A program made the position numbers and the translations under genes. Source: Bacteroidota bacterium (GTDB lineage: Bacteria > Bacteroidota > Bacteroidia > Bacteroidales > JACABE01). Taken from it: a stretch of DNA of 64,000 nt. Below, piece by piece: positions 14,588 to 22,229 of this stretch (position 1 is the stretch's first letter; each line of letters opens with the position of its first letter). The notes beneath the pieces were generated by a model. That model worked only from the letters and a program-made list of their open reading frames with translations, made no database searches and was not told the origin of the DNA. The DNA is taken from contig JAPLDQ010000011.1 of assembly GCA_026391675.1 (NCBI GenBank), positions 62,001-126,000 on the forward strand, written 5' to 3'.

Positions 14588-17098
14588 ATGAAAACTATAT
14601 TACTTATTACTTTGCTGATATTTGTTGGAATTCCAATGTATGCTCAGGACAGCATTGCAATAAATCCCGTTACACAATTTCAGACCATTACAGGCTGGGG
14701 CCATGGAGGAGGAGTATATGGTGGTGTCAATGCTTTAGGCCCTTTGCTGGACTCAGCGGTGGCTAATCCTGTAAATTATCAGATGTTCGATTTCCTTGTT
14801 AAAGATCTCGGTCTTACCGGCACCCGCACTTATGAAGTTGGGCCGCGCATGGACGGTACAGCTATGGATGATGGCGACTGTGATAGTATTAACTGGTCGA
14901 AATTTGATCAGGGAAGCTTGCCTCTTCAGTTGGCTCAAAATCTGGTGTATTTTAAAAACAGTATCATTGCAAATGGTAGTCAGCCAAATTTTTATTCAAG
15001 TCCGGGTTATCCCACTCACGCTACTGATCAGAAACCCTGGATTATGTATCATCCGGGTGAGCGTGCCCAGCAGATTTGGGCAAGTGCTTTGTTTTTGAAA
15101 AATACATACGGAATTGATATTAACTATGATGTTATTTATAACGAACCCTCAAGCCCAATTACTTCCGATATACTTGCTGATGATATAAAAGCATTAGGCC
15201 CGCGGTTGATATCCAAAGGATTAAATACTAAAACACAATATGCTGAACGGATGACTCCTCAATCTGATTGGGACTATATCACTCAGCTACAAAACGACTC
15301 CCTTTTATGGACCTTTGTAGGACGGCTATCTTATCATAATTATGGTACAGCTGATCCTTACCGCTCTTATATCTATAATTTCGGTGTAACTAAAGGACTC
15401 ACCACAGCTCAGACCGAAATGGACAGTCCCACTTTCGATGATCTTTACAACGATCTTACCATAGCAAACGTATCTTATTGGGAAGTAGCATTCAGCGCCA
15501 CAAATACCCTGGTGCTGGATACAGGACTGACTTCATTCATGCCATCAAACACTTATTTCCGACTTCGCCAGTTAATGCATTATGTAAGGCCGGGTTACTT
15601 ACGCATCGGAATTTCATGTAACGATGCTGCACTTCATGTCCTGGGTTTTTTTAAAAGTGGTGCTGTTACAACTATAATAGAAAATACATCGGGTTCATTA
15701 AAAACAGTTTTCCTGAACGGCTTGCCTCCCGGACAATACGGATTATCATCCGCTGCTCAGAGTGCAACTTCATTTCAGGAATACGGCATACGCACTGTAG
15801 GAGCCGGAGGTACACTCACAATTAATGTAAATGGTGGAAACACCGTAACTACATTATATCCTTATTCCGGAACAAATCAACCACCAACTATCATGACCTG
15901 GAAATCAATTCCCGGATATATTGTCGCACCGGCAACTACAGCAATATTGCAAGTTACAGCAAATGACCCTGAACTTAACACGCTTACCTATCTTTGGACG
16001 GTAACTGCATATCCTGTTGGAGCAAATCCTGTATTGAATACACCAACTGCAGCCAGTACAACTGTGAGCGGACTTACGGTTGCAGGCAAATATATCTTCA
16101 ATATAAATGTCTATGATGGTGTTAACACTTCTTCAAAAAAAGTCTACCTTGTTGTATACAGTTCAAGCCCTCCTCCTGTTCTTGGTAACTGCGGTTTTAG
16201 AATAGCTGCTCCATACGGGCTGGTATTCGGAAATCCGGGCGATACCACACATGCTAATATCGAACTGCCAACTTCATCTGTAACACTGCAGGCAGGAATT
16301 TCTGACCTAACAAATAGTACATTTACCGGACTAGGAAACTGGACGTTGGTGCAACAACCGGCAGGTGCAAATGCTTTAGTCAGCAGTACAACATATATAT
16401 ATGTAAGTTTACGCGCTACAGTAACAGGAATGACTGTACCCGGAGATTATGTTTTTCAGATAGTTGTGAACAAGCCCGGATATCCAACGCTCACAAACCG
16501 GGTAATATGTACTGTACATCCAACAAGTTCTGCTCCTGTTATCAATTCCATTACAGCATTTCCTGCAGTTTTCAATTTGCCTGCAAATAATACACTGCTA
16601 AACGGAATAACAAGTGATTCCGAAGGTGACCTGCTCAGGCATTGGTGGGTGGTTAAGTCAGCACCGATAGGTGCAAATCCAGTATTTAGTAATCAGGGGA
16701 AAAAAGTATCAAATGTAAACGGATTAACTGTTGCCGGAACTTATATCTTTACTTTACGCTGTTTTGATGATCTGCACATGACCACAAAGGATGTAACTGT
16801 AACAGTAAATAGTGCTGTGAGTGCAATTGAGAATAATTCAATTATAAATTCAGTTAATGGGATTATAGTTTATCCAAACCCATTCTCCAGTGAAACAACT
16901 TTAAAAATAATTGACAATTATAAAAATGCATGCTTAATAATTTACAATTCATATGGACAACAAGTAAAACAGATAAAAAATATTTCAGGACAGACAATAA
17001 TATTGCAAAGAGGTAATTTAAAAAGTGGGTTTTATTTTATTCACCTGATTCAGAATAATATAATTATAGCAACAAATAAAATAATAATTTCTAACTGA
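14588..17098 (+). CDS. GH30-like glycoside hydrolase with PKD-like repeats and T9SS type A sorting domain
   Basis: QTITGWGHGGGVYGG N-terminal motif; clan GH-A candidates DVIYNEPSS (acid/base) and TTAQTEMDSP (nucleophile); three related ~GANP..GLTVAGKYIF repeats; C-terminal VYPNPFSSETTLKI...YNSYGQQVKQI..GFYFIHL. Confidence 0.8.
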   Translation: MKTILLITLLIFVGIPMYAQDSIAINPVTQFQTITGWGHGGGVYGGVNALGPLLDSAVANPVNYQMFDFLVKDLGLTGTRTYEVGPRMDGTAMDDGDCDSINWSKFDQGSLPLQLAQNLVYFKNSIIANGSQPNFYSSPGYPTHATDQKPWIMYHPGERAQQIWASALFLKNTYGIDINYDVIYNEPSSPITSDILADDIKALGPRLISKGLNTKTQYAERMTPQSDWDYITQLQNDSLLWTFVGRLSYHNYGTADPYRSYIYNFGVTKGLTTAQTEMDSPTFDDLYNDLTIANVSYWEVAFSATNTLVLDTGLTSFMPSNTYFRLRQLMHYVRPGYLRIGISCNDAALHVLGFFKSGAVTTIIENTSGSLKTVFLNGLPPGQYGLSSAAQSATSFQEYGIRTVGAGGTLTINVNGGNTVTTLYPYSGTNQPPTIMTWKSIPGYIVAPATTAILQVTANDPELNTLTYLWTVTAYPVGANPVLNTPTAASTTVSGLTVAGKYIFNINVYDGVNTSSKKVYLVVYSSSPPPVLGNCGFRIAAPYGLVFGNPGDTTHANIELPTSSVTLQAGISDLTNSTFTGLGNWTLVQQPAGANALVSSTTYIYVSLRATVTGMTVPGDYVFQIVVNKPGYPTLTNRVICTVHPTSSAPVINSITAFPAVFNLPANNTLLNGITSDSEGDLLRHWWVVKSAPIGANPVFSNQGKKVSNVNGLTVAGTYIFTLRCFDDLHMTTKDVTVTVNSAVSAIENNSIINSVNGIIVYPNPFSSETTLKIIDNYKNACLIIYNSYGQQVKQIKNISGQTIILQRGNLKSGFYFIHLIQNNIIIATNKIIISN

Positions 17099-17237
17099 TT
17101 GATATTCATAGATAATTAACAATGGATTATATTAAGTCTAATTTTGAATATATATCAAGAAAATTTTATGAATTGATATAAATACATGTCGTAAAGTGTA
17201 ATTTGTTAAATCTTTACTTTTTCGTTTTTTTTTACAT

Positions 17238-17245
17238 TATCTTTG
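17238..17245 (+). promoter_or_regulatory. Putative Bacteroidetes -7 element (TATCTTTG) upstream of the radical SAM gene
   Basis: Matches TAnnTTTG 31 bp before the ATG; no well-placed -33 TTTG, so tentative. Confidence 0.4.
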
Positions 17246-17275
17246 TATTAAGATTATATAATTTATCTAAATAAT

Positions 17276-18331
17276 ATGGGGAAGATTAATTATATTATTA
17301 TTAAAGCCAATGGTAATTGCAATTTAAATTGCTCATACTGCTATTACACACATCATCGCTTGCCTCAATGGGAAAAGGCTTATAATCTGGAACTTCTCGA
17401 ATTAACATTTAAAAAGATTGCTGCTTATACTCATAATGTAAGTATCTGCTGGCATGGCGGAGAACCATTGTTAAACGGGATTGATTATTACAGAAATGTA
17501 TTGGATTTACAGCAAAAATACCAGATTTGCATTGAGCACAATTTACAAACCAATGGTACTTTAATAAATGATGAATGGGCAAAGTTTTTTAAAGAGAATA
17601 ACTTTTCAATAGGTTTGAGTCTGGATGGAGATAAAGCAGCAAATGATAAGCATCGCCATAATAAATCGAAATCTTCATATAATGCAGTTATTCAGGGACT
17701 GGAAAAATTGAAGCAAAATGAAGTAAAATTTGGTGTCCTTTGTTATGCTAATCCTGAAGAAGATGGGGTAAGAATATTTCATCATTTCATTAATTTGGGT
17801 ATAAAAAAAATTGATTTTATGTTTCCGATTACCTCACATAATTCGGATATTACAATTAATGAAGATTTATTGACTGATTATTTTGAAAAAATATTTAAAG
17901 CCTGGCTTGAATTAAACAATCCTCAGGTTAAGATCAGATTATTTGAAGATATTATATTGCTTTTGGTAGGAGGCAAAGCTAAAAACTGTATTTTTAAGAA
18001 TCAGTGCAACGGTTTTATAACCATCGAACCTAATGGAGATGTTGGTATTTGCGAAAACAATAGGATTAATGGCCATGATAACTATCTTATCGGAAAAAAT
18101 ATTTTATACCATGATTTTAATTCGATTGAAAAAGCGCTTGATTTAAAATCAGCTTCTATTAATACATTACATGATAGTTGTTTAAACTGTAATTTACTAA
18201 ATTTATGTAATGGGGGATGTGCTGTAGAAAGATTTCATCATGATTATAAAAATATAAATGTTTATTGTAAAATTTATAAGAAGCTTTTTGCTAATATAAG
18301 TAAACAAATTTATTCACACTCTAAAATTTAA
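17276..18331 (+). CDS. Radical SAM/SPASM domain peptide-maturase-like protein
   Basis: CX3CX2C (GNCNLNCSYCYY), WHGGEPLL, SPASM-like C-terminus CNGFITIEPNGDVGICENN...CLNCNLLNLCNGGCAVER...YC. Confidence 0.92.
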   Translation: MGKINYIIIKANGNCNLNCSYCYYTHHRLPQWEKAYNLELLELTFKKIAAYTHNVSICWHGGEPLLNGIDYYRNVLDLQQKYQICIEHNLQTNGTLINDEWAKFFKENNFSIGLSLDGDKAANDKHRHNKSKSSYNAVIQGLEKLKQNEVKFGVLCYANPEEDGVRIFHHFINLGIKKIDFMFPITSHNSDITINEDLLTDYFEKIFKAWLELNNPQVKIRLFEDIILLLVGGKAKNCIFKNQCNGFITIEPNGDVGICENNRINGHDNYLIGKNILYHDFNSIEKALDLKSASINTLHDSCLNCNLLNLCNGGCAVERFHHDYKNINVYCKIYKKLFANISKQIYSHSKI

Positions 18332-18337
18332 TAAGTT

Positions 18338-18538
18338 ATGATTATTGAAGATTTTAAAAGCGGACTTATTCTTGATATTATTATCAAGAATTTGAATGAT
18401 GCTGAGATTGATAAATTAGAATTCAGCACCAAAGTAAAGGATAATTGTAAAGAACAGATTCGAGCAGAAATTGGTTCCAACAGGACGTCAGATACAATTG
18501 CCTGGAAAAACCAATGGAGAGATCATATTCCTGATTAA
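18338..18538 (+). CDS. 66-aa small protein, candidate RiPP precursor for the adjacent radical SAM enzyme
   Basis: Starts 6 nt after the rSAM stop; MIIEDFKSGLILDIIIKNLNDAEIDKLEFSTKVKDNCKEQIRAEIGSNRTSDTIAWKNQWRDHIPD; C-terminal tandem W-x-N / W-x-D. Confidence 0.6.
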   Translation: MIIEDFKSGLILDIIIKNLNDAEIDKLEFSTKVKDNCKEQIRAEIGSNRTSDTIAWKNQWRDHIPD

Positions 18539-18773
18539 TAAATATTTTCATTTACCGAGGTAAAATAAATAATAAGGAGATTTAACGGTATAAATTGTTT
18601 TTAGCAATGTTAAAATCCCCAAATCGAAAAACTCAAAATTAATTTATTTTTGAGTGTGATATTAATATGTGTGAATTTAAGATTTTTTGCAGAATATTAA
18701 ATTCCAGAGATTAGTATTATTGAAATATAAAAATTTATTAGAATATTAATAGCATCAACTATCATTGGAATAA

Positions 18774-21700
18774 ATGGGTAAACTTAGTATCATTTGCTTT
18801 TTCATATTGATTTTAATTTCCTGCAAAAGAGAGCAGGAAAAGAAAGTGATAAATCTTAATACCCTTAAATCTGAAAAAGCTGAAGGATATGTGGTTCCAA
18901 AGGATAGTATGGCTGAACCGGTTGTTACCTGTATTGATAAAAACAAACTTAAAAAGATAGCTTTCACTAAACCTTACAAAGTAGAAATTAAAAGCAATAT
19001 TCACCCAATAGTAAAACCTAAATCTAAATTATCAGTTCATCCTAAAATAATCAGTTTAAAAAAAGAATGCCTTATCATTAAAAAAATACACTTTTCTAAA
19101 AGTAGTGTTTTTATAGCTGGTACTCCCGAAGTTGTGAATGCTAAAGAAGCATTTACAAAATATCAGAATCCTCAAAATTTTTCTTCTTTTAGTAAATTAC
19201 AAGGTTTAAAGCAACAAAGTATCTTTTGTATGGAAGAAGATCAATATGGAAACTTATGGTTTGGAACCAATGGCGGTGGCGTAAGTAAATTCGACGGCAA
19301 ATTATTTTCGCATTATACTGACAGAGAAGGGCTGTCAAATAATGAAATAAGATGTATTCTAAGGGATAAAAAAGAAAATCTTTGGTTTGTTACTTTTGGA
19401 AAAGGAGTATGCAAGTTTGATGGTAAATTTTTTACACGTTTTACTACAGATGAAGGCTTATCTCATAATCAGGTACTATCAATTCTGGAAGATAAAGTCG
19501 GTAATATCTGGTTTGGAACCAATGGTGGTGGTGTATGCAAATATGACGGGGAATTCATTACCCAATATAACGAAAACACAGGCTTATCAAATAATTTAAT
19601 ATTAAGCATGCTGGAAGATAAAGCGGGAAATATATGGTTTGGAACTTTTGGTGGAGGAGTATGTAAATTTGATGGTAGCATATTTACACATTTTACTGTA
19701 AAAGATGGTCTTTCAGGAAATAACATATCCTGCATGCTGGAAGACAAATCTGGAAATTTATGGTTCGGTACCGATGCAAACGGACTAAATAGTTTTGATG
19801 GAAAAAATTTTATTTCATATACTGTAAAAGAGGGTTTGTCAAATAATATTGTCAGGTGTTTGCATCAGGATTATACCGGAAAAATTTGGATAGGTACCGA
19901 AGGTGGAGGTGTAAGTGTATTTAACGGGTCTTATTTTACAAATTTTACCACTAATGAGGGATTGTCCGGAAATTCAATATTAAGCATGCTTGAAGACAGA
20001 AACAATACGTTGTGGATAGGAACTTATGAAGGTGGTGTTAATAAATTCAGTGGGAAAATTTTTACAAATTATACAGATAAGGAAGGTTTGTCAAATAACC
20101 ATATAATGAGTATATTCAAAGATAATGAAGGCCGGTTATGGTTAGGTTCTAATGATGGGATAGTCAATATGTATGATGGAAAATCTTTTTCATATTTTAA
20201 TTTAAAGGCAGGTTTCGCAAACAGCAAAATATCTTCGATTGTTCAGGATACTAAAGGGAATTTATGGTTTGGGAGTTTAGGTAGTGGTGTTTGTAAATTT
20301 GATGGTAAATTTTTTACTTTTTTTGCTACCAAAGACGGATTATCAAATAATTATATTTATTGTATGCTGGCTGATAAGAAAGGGAATGTTTGGTTCGGGA
20401 CTTACGGTTCGGGAATTTGTAAATATAACGGGAATTCATTCACGAGCTTTACAACAAATGAAGGCCTTTCTGATAATAATGTTTTTAGTATAGCTGAAGT
20501 TAGTAATGGTGATATCTGGTTAGGATGTGGTGATGGAATGGCAAATAAATTTGACGGAAAACAATTTACCCATTATATTATAAATAAAGGCATACAACAT
20601 AATGTAGTCAGATCTGTTATGGAAGATAAGAACAGGAATATATGGTTTGGCACTTATGGCGGTGGTTTAAGTAAATATGATGGAAAATATTTCACGCATT
20701 TCACGGTTAAGGAAGGTCTATCAAGTAATAATATATTGAGTAGTATTGAGGATAAAAATGGGAATCTTTGGTTCGGAACAAGCTTAGGATTGAGTAAGCT
20801 TACAAAAACAATGTATGCCCGTATTGAAGATAGTGTAATGTTAAATTCTCTAAGTGAAAGTGCTGTAATTTTTAAAAGTTACACTCATGAAGATGGCTTT
20901 TTAGGTGTTGGTGTAAATACAGGGACGTCGATTTGCGAAGATAAGAATGGTATAATATGGATTGCTGCAAATGACCGGCTAACTGCATTTCATCCTGAAG
21001 GTGAATGTTCTGATACATTTCCTCCTGGTATTCAGCTTAACAACATTGATTTGTTTAATGAAAAAATAAATTGGGCTCAGCTTGAAAATAAAAAAGATAC
21101 TATTATTGTTTTAGGCAACGGAGTAAAAGTAGGGAATTTTGTTTTTAACAATATCTCAAAATGGAATTCTATTCCGGAAGGATTGAGTTTGGCATATGAC
21201 AATAATTTCCTGACTTTCAGATTTATTGGAATTACGCAAAAAAGTCCCAATAAAGTTCAATACCGTTATAAATTAGAAGGCATAGATGAAAACTGGAATT
21301 CATTAAGCGATATTACTGAGGCACATTATGGTAATCTGCCTTCAGGCGATTTTACCTTTAAAGTAAAAGCAATAAACAGTGATGGATATTGGAGTAAAGA
21401 ACTCAGTTATAGTTTTAACATTCGTCCGCCCTGGTGGAAAACATGGTGGGCTTATTCTTTATATATCATTTTAGTAGTTGCTGGTATATTATTATATATA
21501 AACTTACGGTTAAGAAATTTAAAAAAGCGACAAAAAATACTTGAAAAAACTGTAAAGGAAAGAACTGCTGAGCTGGAATTGCAGAAAAAAAGAAGCGATG
21601 AATTGTTGCTAAACATACTTCCTTCAGAAGTTGCAGAAGAGTTAAAGCAAAAAGGAAGTGCAAAAGCCAGACAATTTGATAATGTTACTGTGATGTTCAC

Positions 21701-22229
21701 AGATTTTAAAAATTTTACAGCTATTACTGAAAAACTTACACCAGCAGAACTTGTAGCTGAAATTCATAACTACTTCAAAGTTTTCGACAACATAATAGAT
21801 AAATACAATATTGAAAAAATAAAGACCATTGGAGATAGCTATATGTGTGCCAGTGGTCTTACATCATCAGCCAATAAAGCCACTGTGAACGATATGGTTA
21901 ACGCAGCTATTGAAATAAGGCAATATATAAGTGAGCATTTTCAAAACAAAAAGGCAAAAGGTAAAGAACCCTTCGAAATCAGAATTGGAATACACACTGG
22001 ACCGGTTGTTGCAGGAATAGTTGGAATAAAGAAATTTGCTTACGATATATGGGGCGATACTGTCAATATTGCATCACGAATGGAAAGTAGCGGAGAAGTC
22101 GGGAAAATAAATATCAGCAGTACTACTTTTGAATTGGTAAAAGAAAACTTCACATGTACTTATCGTGGTAAAATAGAAGCTAAAAACAAAGGAATGATTG
22201 ATATGTATTTTGTAGAGTATGCAAATTAA
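18774..22229 (+). CDS. Two-component-regulator-type propeller / Y_Y_Y / TM / class III adenylate cyclase fusion
   Basis: 14 repeats of D.xGNLWFGT..GGGVxKFDGKxFTxxT.xEGLSNN; Y_Y_Y-like YRYKLEGIDENWNSLSD...LPSGDFTFKVKAINSDGYWS; TM WWAYSLYIILVVAGILLYI; cyclase VMFTDFKNFTAITEKL, KIKTIGDSYM, YDIWGDTVNIASRMES. Confidence 0.93.
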   Translation: MGKLSIICFFILILISCKREQEKKVINLNTLKSEKAEGYVVPKDSMAEPVVTCIDKNKLKKIAFTKPYKVEIKSNIHPIVKPKSKLSVHPKIISLKKECLIIKKIHFSKSSVFIAGTPEVVNAKEAFTKYQNPQNFSSFSKLQGLKQQSIFCMEEDQYGNLWFGTNGGGVSKFDGKLFSHYTDREGLSNNEIRCILRDKKENLWFVTFGKGVCKFDGKFFTRFTTDEGLSHNQVLSILEDKVGNIWFGTNGGGVCKYDGEFITQYNENTGLSNNLILSMLEDKAGNIWFGTFGGGVCKFDGSIFTHFTVKDGLSGNNISCMLEDKSGNLWFGTDANGLNSFDGKNFISYTVKEGLSNNIVRCLHQDYTGKIWIGTEGGGVSVFNGSYFTNFTTNEGLSGNSILSMLEDRNNTLWIGTYEGGVNKFSGKIFTNYTDKEGLSNNHIMSIFKDNEGRLWLGSNDGIVNMYDGKSFSYFNLKAGFANSKISSIVQDTKGNLWFGSLGSGVCKFDGKFFTFFATKDGLSNNYIYCMLADKKGNVWFGTYGSGICKYNGNSFTSFTTNEGLSDNNVFSIAEVSNGDIWLGCGDGMANKFDGKQFTHYIINKGIQHNVVRSVMEDKNRNIWFGTYGGGLSKYDGKYFTHFTVKEGLSSNNILSSIEDKNGNLWFGTSLGLSKLTKTMYARIEDSVMLNSLSESAVIFKSYTHEDGFLGVGVNTGTSICEDKNGIIWIAANDRLTAFHPEGECSDTFPPGIQLNNIDLFNEKINWAQLENKKDTIIVLGNGVKVGNFVFNNISKWNSIPEGLSLAYDNNFLTFRFIGITQKSPNKVQYRYKLEGIDENWNSLSDITEAHYGNLPSGDFTFKVKAINSDGYWSKELSYSFNIRPPWWKTWWAYSLYIILVVAGILLYINLRLRNLKKRQKILEKTVKERTAELELQKKRSDELLLNILPSEVAEELKQKGSAKARQFDNVTVMFTDFKNFTAITEKLTPAELVAEIHNYFKVFDNIIDKYNIEKIKTIGDSYMCASGLTSSANKATVNDMVNAAIEIRQYISEHFQNKKAKGKEPFEIRIGIHTGPVVAGIVGIKKFAYDIWGDTVNIASRMESSGEVGKINISSTTFELVKENFTCTYRGKIEAKNKGMIDMYFVEYAN

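Follow-up and report, generated by a model that had tools for sequence, protein, structure and literature searches.

A radical SAM/SPASM enzyme and a small peptide with a conserved W-x-N/W-x-D core from the Bacteroidota: a candidate RiPP maturase-precursor pair with a co-inherited cyclase gene

The window, i.e., the whole 64,000-nucleotide stretch of Bacteroidota DNA analysed here, encodes a radical SAM/SPASM enzyme that is directly followed by a small open reading frame (ORF) ending in a W-x-N and a W-x-D motif, which raises the question of whether the enzyme acts on the product of the small ORF, and by which chemistry. A preliminary description had read the two genes as a candidate cyclophane-forming (triceptide-like) RiPP system; of this reading the precursor-maturase pair is supported, whereas the cyclophane chemistry is a prediction (no cyclophane-maturase model is passed, the enzyme branches between the cyclophane-former and sulfatase-maturase groups and its SPASM region has the eight Cys of sulfatase maturases). 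A radical SAM enzyme beside a W-x-N/D peptide is an already known kind of system. Their sequences give good support to regarding the two genes as a new RiPP maturase-precursor pair of the radical SAM/SPASM kind, outside every named subfamily tested; the family of this pair is undescribed in the reference libraries checked. The features are listed below, G043 being a second genome that carries the same cassette.

17238..17245, + strand: Bacteroidota-type -7 element TATCTTTG, upstream of the radical SAM gene (putative, from sequence only)
17276..18331, + strand: radical SAM/SPASM maturase, 351 aa, ATG start, with CX3CX2C and eight SPASM Cys and with Glu260 replacing the usual Asp
18338..18538, + strand: candidate precursor peptide, 66 aa, with a leader of approximately residues 1-55 and the core W56-K-N-Q-W-R-D-H-I-P-D66
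18503..18511, + strand: W56-K57-N58, proposed crosslink motif no. 1 (K at X2 in the window, G in G043)
18515..18523, + strand: W60-R61-D62, second proposed crosslink motif (the same in G043)
18774..22229, + strand: putative lipoprotein of the Reg_prop/adenylate-cyclase type; contains a Y_Y_Y domain and a cyclase domain of class III (adenylate/guanylate) besides 14 Reg_prop matches and a single predicted TM segment

The gene pair and its coupling are established by sequence and agree with the preliminary description: the product of 17276-18331 contains the AdoMet-cluster motif (C15-x3-C19-x2-C22) and a Cys-rich, SPASM-like C-terminus (C238, C244, C259, C302, C305, C311, C315 and C331), and an ORF with the C-terminus AWKNQWRDHIPD (longer stretch of the same end: SDTIAWKNQWRDHIPD) begins 6 nt past its stop, with the W56-D62 codons running from 18503. 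The junction consists of two tandem TAA codons, one more codon and then ATG, and a terminator-like site was not found across 17090-18900. The -7 element was assigned by TAnnTTTG, which we take to be the -7 consensus of Bacteroidota promoters; the orthologue in G043 is also preceded by a TATCTTTG element (L033 9997). When searched as a degenerate pattern, the core (WxNQWRDHIPD) has a single match in the window and none in 100 dinucleotide shuffles.

A search of 98 related genomes yielded a single true orthologue of the enzyme, at 62% identity (E 7e-157), in G043, which belongs to a different family of the same order; the match ranked second was 32% identical. The expectation that a homologue should have a small ORF nearby was borne out with the same spacing: a 68-aa ORF lies 6 bases after the stop of the G043 enzyme and ends in SWGNQWRDHIPDSI (longer stretch: YSWGNQWRDHIPDSI). 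BLASTP of the 66-aa against the 68-aa peptide gave 2e-9 (a single comparison). The cores are identical in 10 of 11 residues, with three synonymous changes, and the sole replacement (K57 to Gly) is at X2, the variable residue of W-x-N; the two Trp and the two third residues are retained, as the proposed W-x-N/D conservation had predicted. Because the G043 orthologue has the same ORF behind it with this degree of core conservation, the 66-aa ORF did not, judged by sequence, arise by chance. Leader identity is 30% in the codon alignment. For the radical SAM gene, the cyclase gene and the leader, dS is either saturated or cannot be calculated; dN is 0.10 in the core vs. 0.83 in the leader, which strongly argues for purifying selection on the core. 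A strongly selected core behind a drifting, predicted helical leader is the sequence pattern of a RiPP precursor. In all likelihood the enzyme acts on the product of the small ORF, and the two genes together very probably yield a chemically modified peptide, most likely a cross-linked one. The predicted structure (AlphaFold) of the enzyme together with the read-through precursor was of low confidence (pLDDT 49.6).

It is most improbable that the small ORF encodes an unmodified small protein (e.g., a regulator of the cyclase, or an inhibitor or chaperone of the enzyme), with the conserved tail as a binding motif. A conserved tail by itself is no proof of modification and a protease or exporter is absent nearby, but a variable helical leader, a hyper-conserved short C-terminal tail and a 6-nt coupling to a SPASM enzyme together make up the architecture of radical SAM RiPP precursors such as those of the YhhA/YhhB and XyeA/XyeB pairs.

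The cassette is rare. In five draws of 98-396 genomes only the window and G043 loci were found, and a third copy was absent from draws of 393 genomes of the order, 395 of the class, 396 of the phylum and 344 of the order (the draws overlap, so the distinct genomes are fewer than the sum). The family of G043 consists of that one genome only, and the enzyme orthologue is absent from three same-genus genomes and one same-family genome. The window enzyme alone, searched against the genome contigs, found only two distant relatives of sulfatase-maturase character. Viral contigs gave no match by protein, two-sequence profile or core pattern; tblastn with the enzyme gave nothing of at least 60% identity in either plasmids or phages (the phage matches listed were 27-30% identical), and tblastn of plasmids with the cyclase gave no match at 1e-100. 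The core-like pattern W-x-[ND]-Q-W-[R/K/H/Q]-[ND]-H had four matches in 354 genomes of the order, namely the two cassettes and two that were chance-like by frame, and a looser core pattern had many scattered matches in both genomes.

The conserved block includes a third gene that the preliminary description missed. In both genomes the small ORF is followed next by a cyclase gene, the products of which (1151 and 1188 aa) are 62% identical and share 13-14 Reg_prop matches, Y_Y_Y and the cyclase domain; their lipoprotein-like N-terminus and single TM segment were judged by eye. No second copy of the cyclase was found in the window genome at E<=1e-100. The sister genome G002 encodes a Reg_prop cyclase with 59% identity across its C-terminal third, with neither a radical SAM gene nor a core ORF beside it in the stretch read. 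In the window the cassette is flanked by the gene of a type-IX-secreted protein (upstream) and by sigma factor/glycosyltransferase genes (downstream), and in G043 by a C92-family amidase gene (upstream) and purine phosphorylase/LpxK-like genes (downstream); the sigma, glycosyltransferase, phosphorylase and LpxK-like functions were assigned by eye. Because these outer flanks differ and close relatives are without the enzyme orthologue, the data fit a three-gene unit that may have spread horizontally. The weak points named earlier hold in both cassettes, i.e., the precursor lies downstream of the enzyme and a protease or exporter is absent. The amidase gene in G043 (L033:9145-9837; Peptidase_C92, a YaeF/YiiX permuted papain-like amidase) lies immediately upstream of the cassette, and its product is possibly the leader-processing enzyme there; a Peptidase_C92 gene is absent from the neighbourhood of the window cassette.

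As to the enzyme itself, all three AdoMet-cluster and all eight SPASM Cys are retained in the alignment. The residue following the third auxiliary Cys is Glu260 in the window enzyme, likewise Glu in the G043 enzyme, Asn in L012 and Asp in all other aligned rows, cyclophane formers included; we take this Asp to be the equivalent of anSMEcpe D277, with a catalytic role. The L012 enzyme (L012:1450-2622, genome G082) is a sulfatase-maturase-like protein with a 144-aa ORF directly downstream, which lacks the WxNQWRDHIPD core. Among the SPASM enzymes characterised by 2017, anSME alone had all eight Cys, and the Cys equivalent to Cys-261 was missing from the peptide-modifying ones (PMC5491770, from which the numbering of the auxiliary-cluster ligands is taken). 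Because the Cys-261 equivalent is present in the window enzyme and likewise in DarE, the cluster set does not discriminate between the hypotheses.

No NCBIfam model was passed by the window enzyme, which scored far below every cut-off (bits/cut-off: TIGR03942, 243.4/349.45; DynA, 190/450; YhhB, 184/445; FxsB, 175/370; GrrM, 137/310; AmcB, 128/425; XyeB, 125/450; DarE, 117/650; PapB, 112/340). The G043 enzyme reached 246.2 bits on TIGR03942, four real or likely sulfatase maturases used as controls 372, 500, 397 and 348 bits, and DarE 236 bits. On the FxsB model the window and G043 enzymes scored 175 and 163 bits vs. at most 119 for the four controls (one of them below the reporting limit), and on the XyeB model 125 and 124 bits, with none of the four controls reported; in these two comparisons the profile scores lean to the cyclophane formers. 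The best matches among solved structures were anSME (1e-36 to 1e-46); the ChlB radical SAM domain came next, along with others. In the trees the window and G043 enzymes formed a clade of their own (supports 99-100/99), outside the XyeB/YhhB clade and between the XyeB/YhhB/Spirosoma/Calothrix group and the sulfatase-maturase group; the trees contained no GrrM, FxsB or DynA sequences, and long branches advise caution.

Two plasmid loci met in these comparisons deserve separate mention. A radical SAM enzyme of the YhhB/FxsB kind on a plasmid of Spirosoma oryzicola (L100:2079-3667 onward) scores just under both cut-offs (337/445 and 334/370), with two small ORFs with GG motifs before it and a peptidase-containing ABC transporter after it; this is probably a separate cyclophane-type RiPP cluster in the Bacteroidota. 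The enzyme annotated as arylsulfatase regulatory protein on Calothrix brevissima plasmid 6 (L101:2059-3652) scores best on YhhB (380/445) and FxsB (347/370) and is preceded by a small ORF; the annotation is probably wrong.

The window enzyme could be a paralogue of anaerobic sulfatase maturases that makes formylglycine. Its target would then be a sulfatase encoded at another place in the genome, or a Cys/Ser of the small ORF, and the small ORF would be a regulator or accessory protein. TIGR03942 is indeed its best NCBIfam model and anSME its best solved relative, all eight SPASM Cys are retained, and each precursor has a single Cys in a D-x-C-K context. This is nevertheless very unlikely: the score is about 100 bits under the cut-off, with the controls at 348-500 bits and the non-member DarE close by at 236; both orthologues have Glu where anSME has Asp; the D-x-C-K sites, at 19 and 6 residues ahead of the core, do not align; and a sulfatase is absent from the window cassette and the G043 locus. 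The only other match to the enzyme in the window genome at E<=1e-20 (L030; G000:C6:84658-85713) adjoins a sulfatase and lies above the TIGR03942 cut-off (372 bits); because this relative fits the role, the window enzyme is not needed as a sulfatase maturase. Formylglycine on the core was rejected, as the 11 residues include neither Cys nor Ser. A thioether of the sactipeptide/ranthipeptide type was rejected as well (core without Cys, lone leader Cys unaligned, PapB 112/340), and so was a streptide-like Lys-Trp crosslink, K57 being Gly in G043.

The reading that we consider probable is a minimal RiPP cassette with i,i+2 cyclophanes at W56-N58 and W60-D62. The bond formed by XncB runs from Trp C6 to the Cbeta of Arg or Asn, and that formed by OscB from Trp C7 to the Cbeta of Asn or Asp, in both cases from i to i+2; W-x-N and W-x-D are experimentally known for OscB and W-x-N for XncB (PMC11002830). 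WKN and WRD match this three-residue rule exactly. In this reading the enzyme would bind the helical leader of the 66-aa peptide, and the 5'-deoxyadenosyl radical would abstract the beta-hydrogen of N58 and of D62; the two auxiliary [4Fe-4S] clusters would remove the electron, and each beta carbon would bond to the Trp indole two positions earlier. The product would contain two adjacent three-residue cyclophanes (-2 Da each, -4 in total), so that the tandem WxNQWRD core could yield two adjacent strained rings.

A RiPP pair with other chemistry on the core is possible, if rather unlikely: a crosslink with a different geometry (daropeptide/dynobactin-like Trp-O-Trp, Trp-Asn i,i+3, or His rings, e.g., W60-H63), beta-hydroxylation, epimerisation or oxidative cleavage. 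The full QWRDHIPD stretch is invariant, with Q, R, H, I, P and D as conserved as W/N/W/D (with only two loci, it cannot be told which core residues beyond these four matter), and the enzyme forms its own clade with Glu260 for Asp. DarE, which forms ether and C-C crosslinks, shares the extra cluster-I Cys and a similar TIGR03942 score (236 vs. 243 bits), and DynA is the second-best model of the window enzyme. Against this, the DynA (190/450) and DarE (117/650) scores are far under the cut-offs, the DynA match is unspecific (sulfatase maturases reach 186-230 bits), and the W-x-N/W-x-D spacing is exactly that of the cyclophane rule.

A more far-reaching proposal, which we regard as doubtful, is that the cassette is a self-contained signalling RiPP, in which the co-inherited Reg_prop beta-propeller/adenylate-cyclase receptor would bind the crosslinked WxNQWRDHIPD peptide as its ligand, and the maturase would represent an intermediate lineage, with sulfatase maturases on one side and cyclophane formers on the other. 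The matured peptide might be secreted and then be sensed by, or act with, the neighbouring periplasmic Reg_prop-cyclase. We guess this role from the co-inheritance of the cyclase at two loci, which are few. The pairing with a receptor-type cyclase at two of two loci suggests a ligand-receptor hypothesis and not an antibiotic; if true, it would be the first such receptor paired with a radical SAM-modified peptide. Sulfatase maturases oxidise one residue and cyclophane formers join two; because the lineage would be intermediate, with eight SPASM Cys kept and Asp changed to Glu, the active-site features that decide between oxidation and crosslinking become open to experiment.

Among known systems, the cassette resembles the triceptide makers (XncB/XyeB, OscB/GrrM, FxsB, YhhB) in that a radical SAM/SPASM enzyme adjoins a small precursor with conserved aromatic-X-X3 motifs (WKN/WGN and WRD/WRD at the two loci) and in scoring above sulfatase maturases on the FxsB and XyeB profiles. 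It differs in that the enzyme is far under all family cut-offs, in a separate clade, with eight SPASM Cys vs. the reduced sets of YhhB/XyeB and Glu260 vs. Asp, and in that the precursor lies downstream and a cyclase partner takes the place of a transporter. anSME (TIGR03942; PDB 4k36-4k39) is the best profile and structure match and has all eight auxiliary-cluster Cys, but the window enzyme is 100 bits below that cut-off, has Glu for D277 of anSMEcpe, is coupled to a conserved small peptide and lacks a sulfatase neighbour (common, not obligatory, for anSME). DarE and DynA are likewise SPASM enzymes that crosslink Trp-containing cores, and DarE has the extra cluster-I Cys too; the window enzyme reaches the cut-off of neither model, and DarE has a long N-terminal region absent from the window enzyme and adjoins ABC-transporter genes.
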